A DNA stretch of 64,000 nt from positions 1-64,000 of the forward strand of contig RXJA01000155.1 of the NCBI GenBank assembly GCA_003963455.1, written 5' to 3'. The DNA comes from Hyphomicrobiales bacterium. GTDB lineage: Bacteria; Pseudomonadota; Alphaproteobacteria; Rhizobiales; Rhizobiaceae. Numbering within the stretch: the stretch's first letter is position 1; every line of letters starts with the position of its first letter. Made by a program: the position numbers and the translations under genes. Below the pieces are notes generated by a model. The model had not been told where the DNA came from and did no database searches. It worked only from the letters and a program-made list of their open reading frames with translations. Shown one piece after another: positions 1,078 to 59,407 of this stretch.

Positions 1078-1271
1078 GCCGATTTGTCCCGCATTGCGAC
1101 GATGATTTTCGTGGCTTGGAACGTGCCGCAAAGCGTCTGTCCGCGCCAATGCGCTGCGGCTATTAAGTCGATAGCGATCGGTCATGAAGCCTGGCGGCGG
1201 ACGTGCTAAACTTCCCAAACGATGATGGCGAGCAAGCCGCTCGCCATCATGTCGGGTTCGATGTCGGCAGC

Positions 1272-3626: not shown

Positions 3627-4661
3627 ATGTCCGTCATGTTTTCACCTCTCGCAATCCCCGCATCGGCGGGTATCGGTCTTCGCTCGCCTCACATCGCCGA
3701 GATGCTCACGCGGCGCCCTTCGGCTGGCTGGCTCGAGGTCCACGCCGAGAACTACATGGGTGACGGCGCTGGCGTCGAGGCGCTGAAAAGGCTGCGCCAG
3801 ATCTACCCGCTGTCCGTGCACGGCGTCGGCCTGTCGCTCGGCAGCGCGCAAGGCCTGGATCGCGATCATCTGGAGCGACTGCGCAAGGTCTGTGAGCGCT
3901 TCCAGCCCGATCTCGTTTCCGAGCATCTGGCCTGGAGCGTCGCCGACGGCGCCTATCTCAACGACCTGTTGCCGCTGCGCTATGACGAAGAGGCGCTGGC
4001 GGTCGTTGCCCGCAATGTCGAGACGCTCCAGGACACGCTGAAGCGGCAGGTGCTGATCGAAAACCTGTCAGCCTACCTGGCGTTCGCCGACTCCTCGATG
4101 AACGAGGCCGAATTTTTGGCGGCGCTGGTAGCGCAGACGGGTTGCGGCTTGCTGCTCGACGTCAACAACGTCCACGTTTCCGCGCACAACCTGCAATATG
4201 ACGCCAAGGCTTTCATCGACGCTTTGCCTGCTGAGGCTATCGGCGAAATCCACCTTGCCGGTCATGCGACCAACCAGGTCGGGACCGACACCGTGCTGAT
4301 CGACGATCACGGCTCGCGCGTGCCGCCAGTGGTCTGGGCCCTCTACCGGCATGCCATAGAGCGGCTCGGGCCGCGCCCAACCTTGATCGAGTGGGACACC
4401 GACGTTCCCGTTCTTGATGTGCTGCTTGGCGAAGCGATGTGGGCCGACATGCTGACCGCGTCGATCATGTTCAACCGCGGGCAAGCTGTCCGACGCGGGC
4501 AGCCGACCGAAGGCCGGGCGAAGCCAGTCTCCCTTTCTGTCGAATGCGAAACGAGGACCAGCATGCCTGTCCTTGCGGCGTTTGCGGCCGCCAGATCCGC
4601 CAGACCGTCCGCTTCCTCGGCGCTGCCCTCGCTCGAGGAGATGTACCATGCTGCCGCTTGA
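3627..4661 (+). CDS. bufB: bufferin-modifying enzyme BufB (DUF692, MbnB-like)
   Basis: 344 aa. This is a DUF692 TIM-barrel of the MbnB type, a multinuclear iron oxygenase that modifies cysteines of the precursor peptide. Candidate metal ligands fall in LEVHAENY, SVHGVG, SEHLAW, LIENLSAY, LDVNNVHVSAHN, EIHLAGH, DDHGSRV and IEWDTDVP, in family order. The core ends near residue 275 (LDVLLGEA). About 70 further residues, low in complexity and rich in Ala, Arg and Ser, make it longer than the usual 280 aa. GGAGGA lies 5 bases before the ATG. The gene overlaps bufC by 14 nt, so translational coupling is likely. The long tail could be real or a product of a lost earlier stop. Confidence 0.88.
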   Translation: MSVMFSPLAIPASAGIGLRSPHIAEMLTRRPSAGWLEVHAENYMGDGAGVEALKRLRQIYPLSVHGVGLSLGSAQGLDRDHLERLRKVCERFQPDLVSEHLAWSVADGAYLNDLLPLRYDEEALAVVARNVETLQDTLKRQVLIENLSAYLAFADSSMNEAEFLAALVAQTGCGLLLDVNNVHVSAHNLQYDAKAFIDALPAEAIGEIHLAGHATNQVGTDTVLIDDHGSRVPPVVWALYRHAIERLGPRPTLIEWDTDVPVLDVLLGEAMWADMLTASIMFNRGQAVRRGQPTEGRAKPVSLSVECETRTSMPVLAAFAAARSARPSASSALPSLEEMYHAAA

Positions 4662-6711: not shown

Positions 6712-6786
<75 letters not shown>

Positions 6787-15085: not shown

Positions 15086-15111
15086 AGAAAAAGGCGGCCC
15101 GAGGACCGCCC
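15086..15111 (-). terminator. intrinsic terminator upstream of the tail fibre gene
   Basis: On the minus strand GGCGG - TCCTCGGG - CCGCC is followed by TTTTTC. It lies inside the late leftward unit, before the tail fibre gene, so it would stop most polymerase unless read-through or antitermination occurs. Confidence 0.7.
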
Positions 15112-15142
15112 TTGCGAAATTCTGGTTTTTGGAGTTCACTGC

Positions 15143-29682: not shown

Positions 29683-29906
29683 TGTTCAGTCCTTTCAAAG
29701 GGTTGAGGGAGGTTTGGAGCCGCTGTCGTGCAGGGTGGCCGAAGGCGTTCCGGGGCCTTTGCAGGGGTGGCCGGTCAGCAAATCGGGGCTTCACGTCATA
29801 GGCAGGGTAGATTTGCCGTGCTCGGGGCCGTTTCCGGGGTGGCCGATCAGGCAATAAAAACGCCCGCCGAAGCGAGCTGTTCACTGACAGATCGTCAGAG
29901 AATTCC
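29683..29906. other. scaffold-capsid spacer with degenerate repeat
   Basis: 224 bases without a gene. It contains the terminator at 29853-29877 and two related segments (GGGGCCTTTGCAGGGGTGGCCGGTCAG and GGGGCCGTTTCCGGGGTGGCCGATCAG) about 70 bases apart. They may form RNA structure or a binding site in the capsid leader. No clear promoter was found for the capsid gene. Confidence 0.5.
29853..29877 (-). terminator. intrinsic terminator between scaffold and capsid
   Basis: The minus strand reads GCTCGC-TTCG-GCGGGC-GTTTTTATT, a 6-bp stem with the stable UUCG loop and a T run. It lies in the middle of the head operon, so it either lowers read-through or is bypassed by antitermination. Confidence 0.75.
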
Positions 29907-32869: not shown

Positions 32870-33082
32870 TTAGCCGGCCTGGCCCAAGAGCGAGTTGGAG
32901 TAGCTCGACGTGCCAGCATCGCCACCACCAGAGCGGCGGGACAACATCGTGGACGCCCTACCCGAGCGCGCGGCGATCTGCTGGCGCTGGCGAAGATCGG
33001 CCGCCTTGGCGGCTGCATCGTCAGGCGTCGGCATGGGCGTGGGCGCTTCGGGTTTTTGGGCCTTGCCAAAGAGTCCGGACAT
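32870..33082 (-). CDS. small conserved head protein (70 aa)
   Basis: MSGLFGKAQKPEAPTPMPTPDD then a helical basic segment and ASTMLSRRSGGGDAGTSSYSNSLLGQ. Proteins of this type are found between terminase and portal in many podoviruses. The start overlaps the TerL stop (TAATG). Function unknown. Confidence 0.65.
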   Translation of the reverse strand: MSGLFGKAQKPEAPTPMPTPDDAAAKAADLRQRQQIAARSGRASTMLSRRSGGGDAGTSSYSNSLLGQAG

Positions 33083-34482
33083 TAGGCTCTCCGTTTTGTT
33101 TTGATGGAGGAATATCCAAGGTTAACGACTGGCGCGCGGCGCCCGAACTGGCCTTCCTCGCGCTTCGTCATGGCCGGGAACAGGGACGCAAGGCCCCAGA
33201 TCATTGCATCGGCGCGGTCAGGCGAGCGTGAGCCCACATAACCAGCCGTGGTCATTGCGCAGAGCTGGTCTTCCAACTCGCCGAAATAGCCGACGAGCGA
33301 GACCTTCTGCTGCTCGAACAGAGCCGCGATAGGCTCAGCCCGTACAATCTTGCCCCTCGACGCGGTGACTTCCCGGTACGGAACCATCGAACCGATGCGC
33401 TTCGAGGCTGCGGAGCGGATGATTTCCGCCACCATGGCCCCGCCGAAGTTGCCTTCAGCCACCACGCAGTCAGCTTCCCAGCGATCGAATGCCGAGACCG
33501 CAGCCGCACCCCATTGAGCGGGAGCCATGCGCCCCGAGATATCCTCAAGGACATAGCCGCGCCCGTCCTTGCCGAGGCCGCAGACGACTATGCCGACCTC
33601 GTCTGAGCGCTTGTCTTCCTCGCCGGCAACACCGGAGGGATCGACCGCCACGACAATGCGCACCATCTCCGGTGTATTGCCGTCAACGATGCGCTGCTGA
33701 TCGAGCAGTTCCATCGTCCATAGCGCTGAATCCGCCATGTCGGCGAACTGCCCGAGCCAGAAGCGGCGCCGCATCGCCTCCGACATGCCTTGAAGCTCCT
33801 CCAGATACGAGGCCGGGAGATTGGCTTCGTTGTCCTTTGGGTTCATGGTGATGGCGGCGTAGTTCGCTGGATTGGCCAGCGGCGTACGGCGATCGGGGTC
33901 TCTCTTCTCCACGAAGAGCTTGTAGGTCCAGTGCGCCATTCCTGGCGGGTTGCAGTCGTAGTAGGCTTTCAGCCGAAGCGGTGTCTTCTGCGCCAGGCGG
34001 GTGATCGCCATGTTGCGGGAGGCATAGGGAATCTGCGAACACTCGTTGAGGTAGAGCGTGGCGTATTCCTGGCCGAGGATCTTTTCCGTGCGCTCCTTGT
34101 CGTCCAGGCCGCCGAACCAGATTTCCGAGCCGTTGGGCAGCGTCAGATACCAGTCCGACTTGTCGAGCTTGCAATTTGGCCCGAGGCCAGGAAAGCACCG
34201 CTCCATTACTGTGGGCAGCGTATCCAGAATGATCGAGGCCTTGATATGGTTGAACCGGTAGCGAAGCATTGCGTGCCGGCTCTTATGGGCCAGCGCGCGG
34301 ATCATCACGGCACGGACGAAGCCGAAAGTCTTTCCAGATCGTGAGCCACCATACGCCATGATGTGCGTGGCATCAGAAGCCAGAAGATCAATCTGCGCCT
34401 GCTGCTTCTTGTGAAGCTTGAACGGCTCGTCGGGGCGCTTGACCTGGCCGAGGATTCCCGTCCACTCACCAATAACGGTCAA
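33082..34482 (-). CDS. terL: terminase large subunit
   Basis: 466 aa. Walker A is AYGGSRSGKTFGF; Walker B with the catalytic Glu is TLYLNECSQI. The C-terminal nuclease domain shows Asp motifs VAVDPSGV, ADCVVAEGNFGG and SRSPDRADAMIWGL. It packages DNA into the prohead with ATP. It overlaps terS. Confidence 0.9.
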   Translation of the reverse strand: MTVIGEWTGILGQVKRPDEPFKLHKKQQAQIDLLASDATHIMAYGGSRSGKTFGFVRAVMIRALAHKSRHAMLRYRFNHIKASIILDTLPTVMERCFPGLGPNCKLDKSDWYLTLPNGSEIWFGGLDDKERTEKILGQEYATLYLNECSQIPYASRNMAITRLAQKTPLRLKAYYDCNPPGMAHWTYKLFVEKRDPDRRTPLANPANYAAITMNPKDNEANLPASYLEELQGMSEAMRRRFWLGQFADMADSALWTMELLDQQRIVDGNTPEMVRIVVAVDPSGVAGEEDKRSDEVGIVVCGLGKDGRGYVLEDISGRMAPAQWGAAAVSAFDRWEADCVVAEGNFGGAMVAEIIRSAASKRIGSMVPYREVTASRGKIVRAEPIAALFEQQKVSLVGYFGELEDQLCAMTTAGYVGSRSPDRADAMIWGLASLFPAMTKREEGQFGRRAPVVNLGYSSIKTKRRA

Positions 34483-34916
34483 AGGATGGCCGCGTCCTTG
34501 GTGCCGATGAGCACCTGGATTGGCCCGCCATCTGGACCGGTATGCTCCTGCTTGTCGCGCCAGTCAGCTGGGCGGCGGTTTTTCAGCCAGAAGATCGCCG
34601 CTGTCGTATCAGGCGCGACATGCTCACGTACCGGAGCGCGGATGATCTCGCCCTGATGCTGGAATATCTTCTCGCTTTCGAACGTGTATCCGACCGCCTT
34701 ATGGTAGAGGCTGCTCACCACGCGCTCGTCGGCTTTTTCCTTTCCGGCGTTTAAGGCCTGACAAAATTGCTCGTGTGCGTGCTTCCAGCGATAGATGGTT
34801 CGCACGTCAACATCGAAGAAATCTGCCACCTCGATATCTGTTGCTCCGAGTGAGGCAAGCTTTTCTGCCTGCCCCACATAGGAGGGATCGAAGTCGGTGG
34901 GCCTTCCAGCGGTCAT
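34479..34916 (-). CDS. terS: terminase small subunit
   Basis: 145 aa. MTAGRPTDFDPSYVGQAEKLASLGATDIEVADFFDVDVRTIYRWK has the helix-turn-helix used for pac/cos recognition, and the C-terminal part includes TTAAIFWLKNRRPADWRDK, a conserved small-terminase motif. GGAGG lies 10 bases before ATG 34916; the ORF-track start at 35051 lies in the neighbouring gene. Confidence 0.85.
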   Translation of the reverse strand: MTAGRPTDFDPSYVGQAEKLASLGATDIEVADFFDVDVRTIYRWKHAHEQFCQALNAGKEKADERVVSSLYHKAVGYTFESEKIFQHQGEIIRAPVREHVAPDTTAAIFWLKNRRPADWRDKQEHTGPDGGPIQVLIGTKDAAIL

Positions 34917-34944
34917 AAGCTTGTTGCCTCCAAGCTGTTCCCGT

Positions 34945-35349
34945 TTAGGCCTTGACGACCACGAACGAGATAACCAGCGTACCGTTGACTGCGGCAGCGC
35001 CGGAAATATTCTGGATGGTGATGGCGACGGAGCCCGCAGCCGGGATGACATCGGCCACAGTGACAGTGCCCGTGGTTGCGGTGCCCTTGCCGACAGTGAC
35101 GAGTACGATATCGGCCGCCGCGATCTTCGAGTTGGTCAGCGTGAGCACATGGGTAGCAGCCGCTGCCGTGGTCAGGGCTGCCGTCGTGATCTTGCCAGAC
35201 GCCTTGTTGAGCGTTGCAGTGCTCGTGCCACCAGTGCCGGTAGCGGTTGCCGTCTTGGTGCCGCTGTCGATCGAGATGGCGCCCGCATCGTGACGGAGCG
35301 TGTCGTTGTCGTCGAAGCCGAGCTTCTTGCCGTAGAGAGAGTGGAACAT
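34945..35349 (-). CDS. beta-rich structural protein (134 aa)
   Basis: Starts MFHSLYGKKLGFDDNDTLRHDAGA, then a Thr/Ala-rich beta domain (TKTATATGTGGTSTATLNKASGKITT). It looks like a head decoration or fibre-like protein; no named family. It sits upstream of terS with the SGNH protein genes. Confidence 0.6.
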   Translation of the reverse strand: MFHSLYGKKLGFDDNDTLRHDAGAISIDSGTKTATATGTGGTSTATLNKASGKITTAALTTAAAATHVLTLTNSKIAAADIVLVTVGKGTATTGTVTVADVIPAAGSVAITIQNISGAAAVNGTLVISFVVVKA

Positions 35350-37675: not shown

Positions 37676-37752
37676 TGGTTGCGGAGCCTCGGATTTGAAC
37701 CGAGAACCTCAAGGTTATGAGCCTTGCGCTCTACCGGATTGAGCTAGCCCGC
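37676..37752 (-). tRNA. phage tRNA with CAU anticodon (Met or Ile2), irregular acceptor stem
   Basis: Minus strand: GCGGGC-TA-GCTC...GAGC D-arm, anticodon arm CAAGG-CTCATAA-CCTTG (CAT), T-arm CTCGG-TTCAAAT-CCGAG, 3' side GCTCCGC then AACCA. The 3' acceptor strand expects a 5' strand such as GCGGAGC, but only GCGGGC stands before U8-A9, so one base seems missing, and an extra A precedes CCA. It is either a slightly unusual but active tRNA or a damaged one. Anticodon CAU may serve Met or, with lysidine, Ile. Confidence 0.75.
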
Positions 37753-37802
37753 TAAACTGAATTTTGGCAAAGCTTCGCAATGCGGCTGCGGTGAGGTCAG
37801 CC

Positions 37803-37845
37803 TGATTTGCAATCGGGACGTGTCCCAGCCATCGCGTGCAAATCA
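37803..37845. promoter_or_regulatory. inverted repeat between late promoter and tRNA
   Basis: Perfect 9-bp arms TGATTTGCA / TGCAAATCA, enclosing GGGAC-GT-GTCCC. It lies between the promoter at 37856-37884 and the tRNA, so it would be in the 5' part of the transcript or act as an operator. Confidence 0.5.
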
Positions 37846-37855
37846 CCCTGCAGAA

Positions 37856-37884
37856 AATATATGCGATTTTAATTTCTGATGCAA
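37856..37884 (-). promoter_or_regulatory. strong sigma70-type leftward promoter
   Basis: Minus strand TTGCAT - 17 bases - TATATT, in an AT-rich stretch of 37856-37890 between the DUF2493 gene and the tRNA. It should transcribe the tRNA and could feed the terminase and head genes downstream. Confidence 0.65.
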
Positions 37885-37893
37885 TAGGGATAT

Positions 37894-38241
37894 TCATCCC
37901 ACTCTGACCACTCTCACGCCGGCATTCCCAGCCCGAGAAACCATGTCTTCAGTCCCTTTGCCCCCAGGAAAAGCTACGACCAACCCAGGCTTCCCATCGT
38001 CAAGCATTTTCTGGTTCCTGATTGGTCCAGCGGCTCGGCCGTGCGCCTTCCAATTGGCTCTAAACGTCAGTGTGGAAATGCCATTGCTGTGCGCCCAGCG
38101 AAACCCCAGCCTGTCAGCGCCGCTTGCCCCTCCCTCGATCACGTGGGTGAATGGGCCATATTGCTCCTGAAGTGCCTGGAGCGCGGAAAACACACGCCTT
38201 TCATCCGTGTAGTCTCTGCCACCACAAACGAGAACTCTCAT
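37894..38241 (-). CDS. DUF2493 / SLOG-fold protein
   Basis: 115 aa. MRVLVCGGRDYTDERRVFSAL, HVIEGGASGADRLGFRWA, FRANWKAHGRAAGPIRNQKML and PGLVVAFPGGKGTEDMV are the ordered motifs of the YspA-type SLOG Rossmann fold (nucleotide-binding). Common in phages; the exact substrate is unknown. Coupled to the NusG-like gene (TGATG). Confidence 0.85.
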   Translation of the reverse strand: MRVLVCGGRDYTDERRVFSALQALQEQYGPFTHVIEGGASGADRLGFRWAHSNGISTLTFRANWKAHGRAAGPIRNQKMLDDGKPGLVVAFPGGKGTEDMVSRAGNAGVRVVRVG

Positions 38242-38876
38242 CACGCCACCAGCTTCACCGAGTCCATCGGCACCGACATTTCCAGGCTTTGGATGAGCAA
38301 GCGCAACCGCCCTTCTCTGTCCGTTCCGGTGACAATGCCGTGCCGTTCCTCTGCCGGGCCTCTCGTGACTTCGACCAGCGACCCCATGGGAAACATGCTG
38401 CTCGTCTTGCGGCGCGGAAGCCGCCTTGCTGCCGCCTCTCGCTGCTCGATCAGCTTCTGAAGCTTGGCCTCGGCTTCGGCTTCCATCACGCGCAGCATAT
38501 CGATTTCAGCAACCGGTATCGTCATCGGTCTGCCTTGGTTGCGCACGACGCTTGCGACGCCAGCCGTCTCTTCCAGCCGCACCCAATCTTCCACGTCCTT
38601 GACGAAGACGTAGCCAAGAAGGAGCGCGAAGCGGCGCGGCTTCCATAGATCGGTTTTCTTGCGATCTCGGACTAGGCGCCGCTCGACGGGCATATAGTAG
38701 GTGAAGCCTTCGTTAGAGAGAGCGCGCTCAATCGCGGAGATATTGGGGTCAAGGCTTGGCGTGATACGATAGCCCTTCCCTCTCGGCCTGCCGTCTGCGC
38801 CCAGCGAGGTCGATTCCACAACATACTCACGTTGCGGCATTTGGGCACCCGGAGCCGTGCGCACAGCGTACCACAT
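38241..38876 (-). CDS. NusG/RfaH-like transcription factor, probable phage antiterminator
   Basis: 211 aa. WYAVRTAPGAQMPQREYVV and TYYMPVERRLVRDRK are the NusG N-terminal (NGN) start and helix; GYVFVKDVEDWVRLEETAGVASVVR is the most conserved NGN block. A 40-aa linker follows, then the KOW domain MGSLVEVTRGPAEERHGIVTGTDREGRLRLLI. NusG-family paralogues bind RNA polymerase and make it ignore terminators. It sits just upstream of the late genes, which contain intrinsic terminators. ATG 38876 has GAGGG upstream; the ORF-track start at 39056 is an unsupported extension. Confidence 0.8.
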   Translation of the reverse strand: MWYAVRTAPGAQMPQREYVVESTSLGADGRPRGKGYRITPSLDPNISAIERALSNEGFTYYMPVERRLVRDRKKTDLWKPRRFALLLGYVFVKDVEDWVRLEETAGVASVVRNQGRPMTIPVAEIDMLRVMEAEAEAKLQKLIEQREAAARRLPRRKTSSMFPMGSLVEVTRGPAEERHGIVTGTDREGRLRLLIQSLEMSVPMDSVKLVA

Positions 38877-38943: not shown

Positions 38944-39150
38944 TTATGGGGTCTGCGCCGTTTTGATCCACAGCCCCTTGCCGGACGCGGCGATACGCAC
39001 ATCTGTGATGACGTGGCGTGTTCTGTAGCCGCGCTCCAGTTCCCAGAGGCAGCCACCGCCCTCGCCTATAAATTCCCAGCCGTCTCGCTCCATGTCGCGA
39101 CGATCGCGGCGCACCTTGAGAACTTGGCGAGTGATCTGCGTTAGCTTCAT
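38944..39150 (-). CDS. hypothetical protein (68 aa)
   Basis: MKLTQITRQVLKVRRDRRDMERDGWEFIGEGGGCLWELERGYRTRHVITDVRIA is a compact basic domain found among phage early genes. Coupled to the DnaA-C-like gene stop (ATGA). Function unknown. Confidence 0.6.
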   Translation of the reverse strand: MKLTQITRQVLKVRRDRRDMERDGWEFIGEGGGCLWELERGYRTRHVITDVRIAASGKGLWIKTAQTP

Positions 39151-39698
39151 CTAACCCTCCGCAGGTAATGATCCGATGCCCGCTGGCGATTGCGCTCACG
39201 AGCATTCGCAAGATCATAGCCGACGAGCGGGGGCGCCCCGGTGGCATCGCTGTAGCTGGCTATGGAGTGCAAAATTGACGTGTGGTCGCGATCGAACCAG
39301 TTCGCGAGCTGCGTGCTGGACAGCATCGGCTTGCGAGCCTTGATGAGATAGATCGCTTCGTTGCGGGCCCTGACGACGGGATATTTCCGGTTGTCGCCGG
39401 CCATATGGCTCGGACATACGTCGTGCTTCTGGGCGGTTTCGTCGACGATCTGGCGAGCCCATTCCGGCATATAGCGGCGCTTGAAGGTCAATAGCCCTTG
39501 ACGGCGCGCTTCAGCCCTCGCCTCGATATGCCTCTCTTCGTCGGCGCGCGCCCGTGCTTCATTGGCTCGTTGGATAAACTCCTTGGTATAGACGCTTTTC
39601 GCCGAGCGGACTCTGTCCCTGTGATCCTTGGCAAAGGCCTTGTGAACCGGGACAATTCGCTTTGCATCATAGACGGGCGGATAGGCGATGAGGCCCAT
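39147..39698 (-). CDS. DnaA domain IV-like DNA-binding protein
   Basis: 183 aa. The region near residues 108-148, VRARNEAIYLIKARKPMLSSTQLANWFDRDHTSILHSI, matches the DnaA box-binding helix-turn-helix of bacterial DnaA, including the DHTSILHSI signature helix. The N-terminal half is a charged coiled coil, and no AAA+ ATPase part exists. It could mark the phage origin, or compete with host DnaA. It lies between the NusG-like and the replication HTH genes. Confidence 0.75.
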   Translation of the reverse strand: MGLIAYPPVYDAKRIVPVHKAFAKDHRDRVRSAKSVYTKEFIQRANEARARADEERHIEARAEARRQGLLTFKRRYMPEWARQIVDETAQKHDVCPSHMAGDNRKYPVVRARNEAIYLIKARKPMLSSTQLANWFDRDHTSILHSIASYSDATGAPPLVGYDLANARERNRQRASDHYLRRVR

Positions 39699-39708
39699 AG
39701 TTTACTCC

Positions 39709-40080
39709 TTACGCTGCGATTTTTGCTTGCGAAAATATTTGCCAGATGCGCTGTTTTGTGAGGCCGAATTTGTCGGCCGTTACTTCCATGCTCTCACCGG
39801 CTGCCAGATAGGCTAGGATCAGGCGATCGCGCTCGATGTTCTTGCTGGGGCGGCGCAACCGCGTCTTGTACATGCGTTGCTTCCGCATCGGAGCTGGCGT
39901 CGTATTAAGCGTTGGCTGTTGATATGGCCTGTATGGGTATGGCTTCCCGAGGAGGGCAGAGCGGCACGAGGATATCTCGCGTAGGATCTCTTGCTCTTTG
40001 CGGCCAGTCATTGCCGCAATATCGAAAGTGTCGTGCCCCGCCTTCCAAAGCCCATAGGCGTCGCGAATAGTCAGGCTCAT
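39709..40080 (-). CDS. HTH protein of the replication region (123 aa)
   Basis: An N-terminal helical part (MSLTIRDAYGLWKAGHDTFDIAAMTGRKEQEILREISS) has its own HTH look, and a C-terminal helix-turn-helix ILAYLAAGESMEVTADKFGLTKQRIWQIFS follows. Two HTHs suggest a DNA-binding regulator or loader. ATG 40080 follows the previous gene by 2 bases. Confidence 0.65.
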   Translation of the reverse strand: MSLTIRDAYGLWKAGHDTFDIAAMTGRKEQEILREISSCRSALLGKPYPYRPYQQPTLNTTPAPMRKQRMYKTRLRRPSKNIERDRLILAYLAAGESMEVTADKFGLTKQRIWQIFSQAKIAA

Positions 40081-40082
40081 GC

Positions 40083-40457
40083 TCAACCCTCCCGCTTCTG
40101 GGTTTCCCATTCCTGGAGAAACTTTGGCTTGTAGTTGCTGATGGGCTTCATCTGGACGACGTTTTCGGCCCGGGCTGCTAGACGCGCCTGGTACTCGCGC
40201 TCCTTGTCGGCCCAATCGAGATAGGCGCACTTGTTGAGCCATGAGGCAGCAAGCGGGATGTAGGCTTTGTCGCGCTCCGGCATGTCGCGGAGGAAGGCCC
40301 TCGCCCCGTCGATGATGTCCTGCGGCAGTGCGCCGGCAAGGATATGCTTGCGATAGGCGTCTCTTGCGTCACCGCGTCCATCAGTACGGCGCATCGTTGG
40401 GCGCCAGACGCCCCAGAACTCGGCAAATCCTTCCGGCTCCTGTAGTTGGATCTTCAT
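40083..40457 (-). CDS. DnaT-like replication accessory protein
   Basis: 124 aa. EPEGFAEFWGVWRPTMRRTDGRGDARDAYRKHILAG and KAYIPLAASWLNKCAYLDW follow the FxxFWxxYPRK...W-L-N pattern of phage primosomal/helicase-loader proteins. The role is inferred from this pattern and its position beside RusA. Confidence 0.6.
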   Translation of the reverse strand: MKIQLQEPEGFAEFWGVWRPTMRRTDGRGDARDAYRKHILAGALPQDIIDGARAFLRDMPERDKAYIPLAASWLNKCAYLDWADKEREYQARLAARAENVVQMKPISNYKPKFLQEWETQKREG

Positions 40458-48623: not shown

Positions 48624-49040
48624 ATGGCGACTAACCATCCTGGATTTGGCGTGATGATCGGAATGCTCGGCGGCAACGCTGATACGGTCAAAGCGCACCA
48701 GTCCGCAATGAACAAGATCATCGCTACGGCGACTGTCGCCAACGACACGCTGACGCTGACGTTTCTCGACGGTTCCATTCTCAAGGCTGTCGATAGCGGC
48801 CAGTCATGCTGCGAGCACCGCTATATGGTCTGTGACGACGATCTGGCGGCTTACGCGGGATCGGTCTTCACCGGAATGGAAATCCGTGACGCGCCAAATG
48901 AACCGGACGATTACGGCGAGCACGAGGTTCAATTTCTCTACGTGAACACCTCGAACGGCCCATTCCACGTCGCCAGCCACAATGAACACAACGGATACTA
49001 CGGCGGGTTTTGGATCACGCTCAATTACGAGCCGGCCTAA
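48624..49040 (+). CDS. DUF7448-like hypothetical protein (138 aa)
   Basis: First gene of the early rightward operon. TATVANDTLTLTFLDGSILKAVDSGQSCCEHRYMVCDDDLAAYAGSVFTGMEIRD and HEVQFLYVNTSNGPFHVASHNEHNGYYGGFWITL match a phage family with a CCEHRY...H.EHNGYYGGF pattern; possible metal ligands are the Cys and His residues. GGAG precedes the ATG. Function unknown. Confidence 0.7.
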   Translation: MATNHPGFGVMIGMLGGNADTVKAHQSAMNKIIATATVANDTLTLTFLDGSILKAVDSGQSCCEHRYMVCDDDLAAYAGSVFTGMEIRDAPNEPDDYGEHEVQFLYVNTSNGPFHVASHNEHNGYYGGFWITLNYEPA

Positions 49041-49103
49041 CCCCATCCCCCACAACAAGCGCAGCAGATGCGCTCACACCAAAGCAACCAAGGGACAACC
49101 AAC

Positions 49104-50033
49104 ATGGCCGCTAAGGCAAAAACCAAGAACGCCGGACTTATCAAGTTCGAGATCAAAAACCGCTGGACCGGCGACATCCAGTTCGTCGCCGAGATCGAAG
49201 CCGATGAGAACGCGACGCTTGGTTTTAAGGTGGGCCTGGCGGTGAAGTGGGCGCTTGGGAATAGCGCGAACCTCAGCGGCGCGAACCTCCGCAACGCGGA
49301 CCTCCGCGGCGCGAACCTCCGCAACGCGAACCTCAGCGGCGCGGACCTCCGCAGCGCGAACCTCAGCGGCGCGTACCTCAGCGGCGCGGACCTCCGCAGC
49401 GCGGACCTCAGCGGCGCGAACCTCAGCGGCGCGTACCTCAGCGGCGCGGACCTCCGCGGCGCGAACCTCCGCAACGCGAACCTCAGCGGCGCGGACCTCC
49501 GCAACGCGAACCTCCGCAGCGCGGACCTCAGCGGCGCGAACCTCAGCGGCGCGTACCTCAGCGGCGCGGACCTCCGCAGCGCGGACCTCCGCAACGCGGA
49601 CCTCCGCGGCGCGAACCTCCGCAGCGCGAACCTCAGCGGCGCGGACCTCCGCAGCGCGGACCTCCGCAACGCGAACCTCAGCGGCGCGGACCTCCGCAGC
49701 GCGAAGAATGCCGATCTTGTCATTGCCAGGACTCGTATCCTGCCGGATGGCGACATCATCGGTTGGAAGAAATGCGCGGCTGGCGTGATTGTCAAATTGC
49801 GCATCCCGGAAGCTGCGAAGCGCTCCCATGCCTTCGGCCGCAAGTGCCGTGCCGAATACGCCGACGTGGTCGAAGTCATCGGCGCCGACAAGGGCATTTC
49901 ACAGCATGACGGCAAGACCGAATACGTAGCCGGCCAGCGCATCACGCCAGACAAGTTTGACGAGAATTGGCAGGAGGAATGCTCCAGCGGCATTCACTTC
50001 TACATCAGCCGGATTGAGGCCGAAAACCACTAA
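49104..50033 (+). CDS. pentapeptide-repeat protein with DUF5758-like end
   Basis: 309 aa. Residues 55-199 are 29 uninterrupted pentapeptides of form A-(D/N/Y)-L-(R/S)-(S/N/G), which should fold as a right-handed quadrilateral beta-helix. The end ([22 protein letters not shown] ... [14 protein letters not shown]) matches the DUF5758 domain found after such repeats. Pentapeptide proteins can mimic DNA (gyrase inhibitors), but the role here is unknown. ATG 49104 is chosen by the AAGGGACAACC site and its MAAKAKTK start. Confidence 0.85.
49266..49700 (+). repeat. 29 tandem 15-bp units coding the pentapeptides
   Basis: Units such as GCGGACCTCCGCAGC and GCGAACCTCAGCGGC are almost identical, with changes only at the few bases that choose D/N/Y, R/S and S/N/G. 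All six frames stay open, which explains the long shadow ORFs. Confidence 0.95.
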
Positions 50034-57728: not shown

Positions 57729-58155
57729 GCTGACAGAGATCGAGCAGCAGTTGCGCGAGAAAATGGACGGAGTGACACCCGGCCCATGGCGCATGCATGT
57801 GCCAGATCGCGGCTATTGTAGCAACCTTGTTCTGACGGACGCGCCAGACTTCGCGCCAGACGAGAAATACCGCTGGCGTCACCTCATTGCCGACTTTGAC
57901 GACTGCCAGCGCGGCGAAGTCAATGCCGCATTCATCGCGCTATGCTCACCCGAGAACATCCGCGCTCTTCTGGACGAACTCTCCCGGCTGAGGGAAGCGC
58001 TGAAGCCATTCGCAGCCGCAGCCAATTGCCACAGCAACGATAAGGAGTTCATGCCGGACGCCATGCTGATCTGGCAGGGTGGCGAATGTACGATACGCCT
58101 TGGCGATCTCCGCCGCGCCCGCGCCCTCTCCACACAGGTTGAGGAACGCGAATGA
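57718..58155 (+). CDS. Ea22-like hypothetical protein (145 aa)
   Basis: GVTPGPWRMHVPDRGYCSNLV, ADFDDCQRGEVNAAFIALCSPENIRALLDELSRLREALKPFA are the typical signature of Ea22/ead-type phage proteins (TPGPW...NAxFIAxxxPxxIxALL). The extension has CHSNDKEFMPDAML. Function unknown. Confidence 0.75.
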   Translation: MAGKLTEIEQQLREKMDGVTPGPWRMHVPDRGYCSNLVLTDAPDFAPDEKYRWRHLIADFDDCQRGEVNAAFIALCSPENIRALLDELSRLREALKPFAAAANCHSNDKEFMPDAMLIWQGGECTIRLGDLRRARALSTQVEERE

Positions 58156-58526
58156 GCCCTGTGGAAACGGCGCACAACATACTCGACCGCGCAATGTCGC
58201 CGGAAATGGCAGTTGCGCGCCTGGCCGATCTCGGCTTGCATATCTCAGAACGCGCCCTGCGCAAGAAAGCGCGAGACCTTGGCGCCTGCCGTGTGTTTGG
58301 AAAGGCGATGATCCTCCTTCCCGAGCATCTGGAAATCCTGCTGGAGGAACCATGCCGCTCGTCGTCTACAACCGCAACGGCATCTATTGGTACAGGGGTA
58401 CGGTTGCCGGAAGACGGATACACGAAAGCACTCGAACGACTGACAAAAAGACAGCGGAGCGCATCGCCAACCGGGCCGAAGCAAGGGAATTCAAACGTGA
58501 CCTTGATGGCCCGGCGTCGATCCTGA
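58152..58526 (+). CDS. excisionase / AlpA-like DNA-binding protein
   Basis: 124 aa. The first 65 residues, SPEMAVARLADLGLHISERALRKKARDLGACRVFGKAMILLPEHLEILLEE, form a winged-helix excisionase-like unit (…LRKKAR.LG.....GK.I....). The frame continues 175 nt into the integrase gene with a basic low-complexity end. Directly upstream of int, so a Xis role in excision is likely. Confidence 0.65.
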   Translation: MSPVETAHNILDRAMSPEMAVARLADLGLHISERALRKKARDLGACRVFGKAMILLPEHLEILLEEPCRSSSTTATASIGTGVRLPEDGYTKALERLTKRQRSASPTGPKQGNSNVTLMARRRS

Positions 58527-59350
58527 CGTTCGGCGCCGCCGCTGCGCTCTATCTGGACGCCGGTCGCTCAGACCGATTCCTGAAGGAAGTGCTGGACCAT
58601 TGGAAGAACACGCTGGTGAAGGACATCACGCCTGGGGCCATCAAACTGGCAGCGATCAAGGTCTATCCGAAGGCCGGACCAGCCACGCGAAACCGCCAGT
58701 TCATCACCCCCACGGTGGCTGTCATCAATCATGCGGCGACGCTGGAGCTTTGCACGGCTTTGATGAAGGTCGATCGGTTTCAAGTGCCAAAGAAGCGGCG
58801 CGACGAAGCCGACTGGAAGTGGGTGGAGGCTTTTGCCAAGCACGCACCGAAGAACCTTGGCGCTCTCGCGATGTTCGGCTTTGTCACCGGGTCGCGGATC
58901 AGCAACATCACAAGTCTGGAGTGGAGTGCGGTGGACTTCGAGAGGAGAGAGGCTGTGCTATGGCGGACCAAGAACGGTCACGACCATGTGGCGCACTTGC
59001 CGCCGGCCCTGATCGTCGCGATGGCCAACCTGGAAACAGATCGCAAGGGGAAGGTGTTCGGGTACTCCAGCCGGCATAGCATCAAGTCGGCGTGGAACGC
59101 CTCGATCAAGCGCGCCAAGATCAGGCCTCTTACACCGCATTCGCTTCGCCACGGCTTTGCTACCGGGCTACTGCGTGCCGGCGTCGATCCGGTCACCGTG
59201 GCATGGCTTGGAGGCTGGGAAAGCGCACAGCTCGTGGTCGAGACCTATGGGCACGCTATGAAGGACCGGACAGTCACAAATCGCCTTGCTGGCCCACTGC
59301 TGCACCAGCAGCCGGAGTCGGCATCGGAATTGCTAATGAAAACAGGATGA
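58352..59350 (+). CDS. int: tyrosine-type site-specific integrase
   Basis: 332 aa. The catalytic set is present: Arg in GFVTGSRISNITSLEW, Lys in WRTKNGHDH, H-x-x-R in PHSLRHGFATGLLRAGVD, the later W/H in AWLGGWES and the Tyr in VVETYGHAMKD. ATG 58352 has GGAGGAACC upstream; the ORF-track start at 58079 is inside the upstream genes. It recombines the 44-bp core in tRNA-Thr and lies next to attR. Confidence 0.9.
   Translation: MPLVVYNRNGIYWYRGTVAGRRIHESTRTTDKKTAERIANRAEAREFKRDLDGPASILTFGAAAALYLDAGRSDRFLKEVLDHWKNTLVKDITPGAIKLAAIKVYPKAGPATRNRQFITPTVAVINHAATLELCTALMKVDRFQVPKKRRDEADWKWVEAFAKHAPKNLGALAMFGFVTGSRISNITSLEWSAVDFERREAVLWRTKNGHDHVAHLPPALIVAMANLETDRKGKVFGYSSRHSIKSAWNASIKRAKIRPLTPHSLRHGFATGLLRAGVDPVTVAWLGGWESAQLVVETYGHAMKDRTVTNRLAGPLLHQQPESASELLMKTG
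59290..59308. repeat. 19-bp direct repeat near attR
   Basis: TGGCCCACTGCTGCACCAG inside the 3' end of int, identical to 6886-6904. See the entry at 6886. Confidence 0.55.
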
Positions 59351-59363
59351 TATATAAAAAGTG

Positions 59364-59407
<44 letters not shown>

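Follow-up and report, generated by a model that had tools for sequence, protein, structure and literature searches.

A phage NusG paralogue and a conserved leader RNA as a candidate late antitermination system in temperate phages of Rhizobiales

A phage-encoded NusG paralogue and a conserved leader RNA lying 3′ of its gene probably constitute a phage late antitermination system in which the paralogue would load through the leader, as LoaP does, a reading drawn by analogy to which we assign a probability of roughly 0.7. More broadly, and with confidence only slightly above even, the pair may represent a second, independent class of RNA-guided NusG paralogue, which has its own pseudoknotted YNCG-hairpin leader, interchangeable C-terminal domains (KOW, short helical or long helical), and replaces Q or N in the temperate phages of Rhizobiales. 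The combination of NusG and leader RNA looks like a previously undescribed late switch in rhizobial temperate phages; no earlier description of the leader RNA was found in a search of the journal literature that took in few subscription journals.

The genetic element that carries nusG in the window, as we call the whole 64,000-nt stretch of DNA analyzed here, is a temperate podovirus prophage, in agreement with the original prediction. It encodes a T7-like portal, tail tubular and internal virion proteins as well as an integrase (58079-59350). A 44-bp att repeat at 6743-6786 and 59364-59407 duplicates the 5′ portion of a tRNA-Thr gene. The prophage extends from about 6743 to 59407, and its right host flank contains EPSP synthase and histidinol dehydrogenase genes. 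Host DNA flanking the prophage also carries a gene for an MbnB/TglH/ChrH-type RiPP modification enzyme (3627-4661, plus strand; PF05114, E=3e-102), and at 49037-50033 ORFs overlap on both strands, that on the plus strand encoding a pentapeptide-repeat protein (E=9e-64) with DUF5758. The expected position of nusG just before the late genes was borne out, both terminase subunit genes lying downstream at a nusG-to-terminase distance of 3.8 kb (Table 1). A DnaA-like gene precedes nusG, an order shared with phage phiLM21, and a scan of phage genes revealed nothing resembling Q or N among those it covered.

The window protein is a member of the NusG/Spt5 family, and both its NGN and its KOW domain are real. 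The 211-aa ORF (ATG at 38876, minus strand) matches the NGN family PF02357 (E=5.8e-11; score 43.2 bits, cut-off 22.2) and phrog_25909, annotated as “transcription antiterminator” (E=4.2e-40), so that the profile searches dispel the concern that the domain assignment was spurious, and when a profile of the phage NusG family was searched against solved structures, RfaH and NusG chains matched with E of about 2e-6. The GYVFV block noted in the NGN domain is kept in the family, with G88, Y89 and F91 invariant in 41 sequences. The KOW domain, likewise proposed at the outset, gives no match in a Pfam sequence search and is recovered from structure: an AF2 model built from 41 related sequences (pLDDT 88) contains the NGN domain, a long helix (residues 122-161) and a C-terminal five-stranded barrel (residues 167-209), and its top Foldseek matches are NusG, RfaH and Spt5 chains, including KOW chains; structural comparison of the NGN domain leads to NusG and RfaH. 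In this single model the C-terminal domain is a beta barrel, not an alpha hairpin. An insertion specific to the family, predicted by AF2 as a beta hairpin, follows the first NGN strand of window-type NusG at about residues 13-46 and bears the motif GKGYRI. A Pfam search of the window’s own assembly returned the phage copy only, a result uninformative about the host because the assembly is 86% complete; the housekeeping nusG probably lies in the missing 14%.

Table 1. Features of the nusG and late region of the prophage (window coordinates).
Feature	Coordinates	Strand	Basis or detail
DnaA C-terminal-domain-like gene, upstream of nusG	39147-39698	-	PF08299, E=1e-9
Phage NusG paralogue (NGN, long helix, KOW)	38241-38876	-	Pfam, PHROG, 41-sequence alignment, AF2, Foldseek
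SLOG/YspA-like gene, between nusG and late promoter	37894-38244	-	PF10686, E=8e-21
Sigma70-like promoter	37856-37884	-	Promoter scoring; -35 TTGCAT (37884-37879), 17 nt, -10 TATATT (37861-37856)
Conserved leader element	37785-37847	-	Covariance model R2 (built without the window), covariation
PK5, 5′ end of leader element	37847-37843	-	GGTGA
Hairpin 1	37835-37809	-	S1a GCGAT/ATTGC, S1b GGGA-CACG-TCCC
Hairpin 2	about 37802-37784	-	GGCTG/CAGCC
Conserved 3′ block of leader	37759-37783	-	..CTTTGCCAAAATTC; also present beyond hairpin 2 in relatives
tRNA-Met/Ile-like gene, anticodon CAT, directly after leader	37680-37752	-	ARAGORN; Rfam RF00005, 57.6 bits
Terminase small subunit (TerS), early in late unit	34479-35051	-	phrog_309, E=1.5e-50
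Terminase large subunit (TerL)	33082-34482	-	phrog_979, E=7e-72
Terminator-like hairpin, late unit	29862-29877	-	GCTCGCTTCGGCGGGC GTTTTT
Terminator-like hairpin, late unit	15091-15112	-	

Relatives of the protein are numerous. IMG/VR yielded 146 candidates, from which 80 loci were kept, and nine further nusG loci were found in cellular genomes of Rhizobiales (genera including Mesorhizobium, Chelativorans, Shinella and Rhizobium), not all of them independent because some are the same prophages as IMG/VR entries. Annotated phage relatives are few and distant (phiLM21 and the RHph phages, 25-32% identity), some already carrying the label “NusG-like transcription antiterminator”. For a temperate podovirus, a NusG paralogue in place of a Q- or N-type antiterminator had been singled out as an unusual design; the phage nusG is no one-off, belonging instead to a widespread family of Rhizobiales phages. 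The NGN domain is kept across the relatives, but what follows it at the C terminus takes at least three forms: KOW, a short tail devoid of KOW, and a long tail of helical appearance, KOW having been lost in many relatives of the window NusG. The order nusG, promoter, leader, (tRNA), terminase is kept in nearly all of these divergent relatives, many of which have no gene between nusG and the leader, and TerL lies downstream of nusG on the same strand, 0.75-5.3 kb away, in 52 of the 53 loci in which it was detected. Judged from sequence, such a conserved order fits a late antiterminator.

The late promoter placed at 37856 by the original prediction was recovered as a sigma70-like match, and promoter scores of at least 8.5 were obtained in 91% of 43 leaders versus 9% of shuffles. 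In the same 43 leaders the distance from promoter to element is near-fixed, and therefore the predicted transcript start falls at the element; the late transcript is accordingly predicted to begin with the leader. Because the promoter is a good sigma70 match, it should need no activator, which argues against a scheme in which a DNA-binding protein, for instance the HTH protein encoded at 39709-40242, switches on the late genes and the NusG paralogue is accessory. The weak PHROG match of that protein to “late transcriptional activator” points in the direction of such a scheme but is not significant (E=0.039), and we regard it as the least probable of the alternatives weighed here.

A k-mer comparison revealed conserved non-coding words 3′ of nusG that are common to otherwise divergent phages and that, where extra genes follow nusG, are displaced together with the late promoter. 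The element to which they belong lies directly 3′ of nusG or 3′ of an intervening gene, its offset being about +391 in the window, +1052 in L055 and +1784 in L041. From 5′ to 3′, it consists of PK5 (GGTGA), TTTG, hairpin 1, a link and hairpin 2, the loop of the latter (TCACC, 37794-37790) being complementary to PK5 in a putative pseudoknot. Hairpin 1 is built from a variable stem, S1a, a GACN/G internal loop and GGGA-YNCG-TCCC; the YNCG-type tetraloop, of a kind common in RNA, is kept in the leader and is swapped for other loops in some subgroups. Beyond hairpin 2, relatives show a 3′ block that reads CTTTGCCAAAATTC, or elsewhere GAAAATGCATCCAAAATTC, and is perhaps a boxA-like or pause signal. 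Besides tRNA, none of 4227 Rfam families matched the window or 11 relatives above its gathering score.

Searches in both directions tie the element to nusG. A covariance model built from seven seeds (R1) matched 42 loci, all in sense orientation and 3′ of nusG, with nothing elsewhere in 0.98 Mb at E<=0.1. A second model (R2), built from these 42 hits with the window left out, recovered the window copy (E=0.002) as the top match in its 6.9-Mb genome, detected a single copy per record in all 18 full phage records, and located the element after eight of nine held-out cellular nusG loci, the ninth contig ending soon after nusG. Across 298 related genomes, the three strongest foreign matches all have a phage nusG directly upstream, and in G173 a convincing copy, followed by TerL, lies 1.3 kb away from the end of its contig. 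Weak matches in genomes of the window’s genus (E 0.01-0.1; 1e-4 in L113) have no nusG, are coding-like and were discarded as false positives, and those in G103 (5e-4) and G485 (6e-4), also without nusG, look like false positives. Conversely, an element-only search with a DNA pattern over IMG/VR returned 41 stretches, 38 of them with nusG upstream on the same strand, mostly at 45 nt or less, and the remaining three at fragment edges. Since nusG and the leader adjoin and related loci are not independent, this co-occurrence could partly reflect hitch-hiking.

The type of leader also matches the type of protein. Type-1 leaders occur in phages whose NusG carries the GKGYR/GYT insertion, and phiLM21-like phages, devoid of the NGN insertion, have a second type of hairpin 1, GGACC...GGGAATACTCG. 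By a regular-expression tally, the type-1 leader accompanies 36 of 39 proteins with the KGYR motif versus 2 of 29 without it, and on visual inspection the exceptions trace to an additional hairpin or to GYT, a variant of the motif; shared ancestry could lie behind this match. A further leader type (TGATTTGCCGCCTG.TCCATCGGGGCTC...) was observed downstream of nusG in L081-L087, L092 and L104, with neither the insertion nor GGGAATACTCG.

These associations bear on whether the leader could act as a put-like RNA that binds polymerase by itself and renders it terminator-resistant, leaving the phage NusG to assist or to act elsewhere. The put RNAs of HK022 measure about 70 nt, comprise two stem-loops and work with no dedicated protein, and putL lies just downstream of its promoter (PMC9378689). 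Size and layout are the same here. However, the HK022 sites are early and paired, whereas each of our phages has one late site, a phage nusG sits just 5′ of every testable element, and the hairpin type tracks the insertion in the NusG protein. We consider this explanation unlikely.

Support for the leader fold comes from covariation. As spacing differs between leader subgroups, 24 leaders were aligned segment by segment by hand and the result was checked with covariance models; from 22 leaders aligned simply with MAFFT, RNAalifold had derived no usable consensus. Among the 24, paired cells amount to 97-98% in S1a, S1b and S2 and to 85% in the pseudoknot, double-change cells number 18, 12, 36 and 15, respectively, the pseudoknot counts resting on the hand-made alignment, and 0 of 2000 block permutations reach the observed pairing in any helix. 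The pseudoknot arms change together (GGTGA/TCACC, TGTGA/TCACA, GAGAT/ATCTC, GCGAT/ATCGC) and the pseudoknot is absent or weak in L042, L053, L056 and L083. In the covariance-model alignment of the 42 hits, 95.8% of cells are paired versus 84.1% in shuffles, the covariation score is 0.343 versus 0.147 and double-change cells are 45 versus 11.6, figures that support rather than prove the fold, since an alignment of this kind is by construction biased toward the model and the leaders share ancestry. Covariation collapses in these hits when pairing partners are slid. Taken alone, the window element folds no better than shuffled sequence (z -0.14). Because the stems contain many G-U but few A-C cells, they appear to be conserved at the level of RNA.

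This evidence weighs on an RfaH-like recruitment through DNA, in which TGATTTG, kept at about +3 to +10 of the transcribed region in most subgroups, would be an ops-like non-template signal recognized by the NGN domain, with a secondary part left to the hairpins. RfaH is indeed a structural neighbor of the phage protein in Foldseek. However, the motif changes in subgroup C to GAGATACG or GCGATACG with pairing to the hairpin-2 loop retained, and the covarying stems with their G-U pairs speak for RNA; the leaders that were inspected showed no evident ops consensus, and TGATTTG, although conserved, covaries as RNA. Recruitment through DNA is, in our judgment, very unlikely. A model of the LoaP or put kind is likelier than one of the RfaH/ops kind, as a covarying leader RNA stands where an ops-like DNA site would be expected.

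tRNA genes, mostly Met(CAT), were found by ARAGORN in 24 of 83 relatives, all in sense orientation between nusG and the terminase genes and none upstream of nusG. The window tRNA may be decaying, since its acceptor stem is imperfect. In L149, the leader is directly followed by a tRNA gene (1173-1246, minus strand) that ARAGORN labels “Pyl”, its anticodon CTA being amber-reading, and a quick look at ORF lengths gave no clear sign of TAG recoding on the late strand. The presence of these genes next to the leader, together with the nearly palindromic hairpin 1 at the DNA level, would suit a leader that controls tRNA processing, mRNA stability or translation, or that is an operator, with NusG serving as a general anti-Rho or anti-silencing factor. 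Yet an ARAGORN tRNA after the leader is missing in most loci, and a DNA operator formed by the hairpin-1 palindrome is disfavored by the G-U pairs, the covarying long-range pairing and the single copy per phage. The chance that the leader has such another role seems to us fainter still than that of recruitment through DNA.

The late unit had been expected to contain at least two intrinsic terminators. Two strong terminator-like sense hairpins are present (Table 1), but the sense strand is not enriched in such sites, which number five sense versus seven antisense in the late region of the window. There is no clear terminator directly after the window leader, the first strong sense one being 8 kb away. 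Across 64 leaders, three have a terminator by a strict definition; a looser one, allowing T4 tails, places a terminator within about 260 nt of the leader in 15 of the 64 loci versus 7.4% of control windows (P=1e-4).

Returning to the reading we prefer, in which the paralogue loads through the leader, the NusG paralogue would be made by early or middle transcription, and host polymerase would start at the predicted sigma70-type promoter just 3′ of nusG, which would be constitutive. The first RNA to emerge would be the folded leader of about 65 nt, with its YNCG-type hairpin 1 and a hairpin 2 paired back to the 5′ end, which the paralogue may recognize as it is transcribed. The NGN domain would then dock on polymerase at the usual NusG site, as the modeled fold suggests, and the bound paralogue would stay on, displacing host NusG and/or, along the late operon of roughly 30 kb, counteracting Rho, NusA and hairpin terminators. 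Without the paralogue, late transcription would stop prematurely; with it, polymerase would read through terminators such as the two hairpins of the late unit. We infer these three activities, RNA binding, loading on RNA polymerase and antitermination, for the phage NusG.

If true, this would establish a second RNA-guided NusG family, located in phages and offering many natural protein-RNA pairs with varying C-terminal domains, which would show whether NGN alone can read RNA and by what means NusG paralogues find their targets. Common prophages of rhizobia, both phiLM21-like and podoviral, would gain a switch for their late genes, a step for which we found no described mechanism, and the leader would add an RNA family absent from Rfam.

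Among known systems are the annotated phage relatives, Sinorhizobium phage phiLM21 and Rhizobium phages RHph_TM3_3_3 and RHph_N28_2, in which a NusG-like gene lies just upstream of the late genes, often with a tRNA-Met in between. They differ from the window in the low identity given above, in having no KOW and in their second leader type, and their annotation comes with no described mechanism; the word NusG does not occur in the paper on the phiLM21 prophage, and the reviews of NusG paralogues that were searched touch on prophage copies only briefly (PMC7819879, PMC7593976). The succession of antiterminator gene, promoter, leader and late genes recalls lambda Q at pR′, and the RNA site recalls lambda N at nut, except that a NusG paralogue fills the slot here. 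HK022 put RNA, the nearest precedent on the RNA side, resembles our leader in dimensions, stem-loops and closeness to a phage promoter, but it serves early promoters without a dedicated protein, whereas here a NusG paralogue adjoins in every testable case. RfaH, a fold neighbor, is an NGN-KOW paralogue that acts on long foreign operons, as the phage protein would; it reads a DNA pause hairpin, and the phage NusG KOW is modeled as a beta barrel. The nearest parallel is LoaP, which binds a UNCG leader hairpin with both domains, the hairpin being required for antitermination (PMC12691694). At the dfn/mln leader of Bacillus, as in our phages, a specialized NusG paralogue, whose gene may neighbor its target, is combined with a UNCG-type leader hairpin and terminators downstream. 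In contrast to LoaP, the paralogue described here is phage-encoded, stands at a late operon, carries an NGN insertion, lacks KOW in many relatives, and would bind, by analogy, not a single hairpin but a leader in which two hairpins are combined with a putative pseudoknot at +1.
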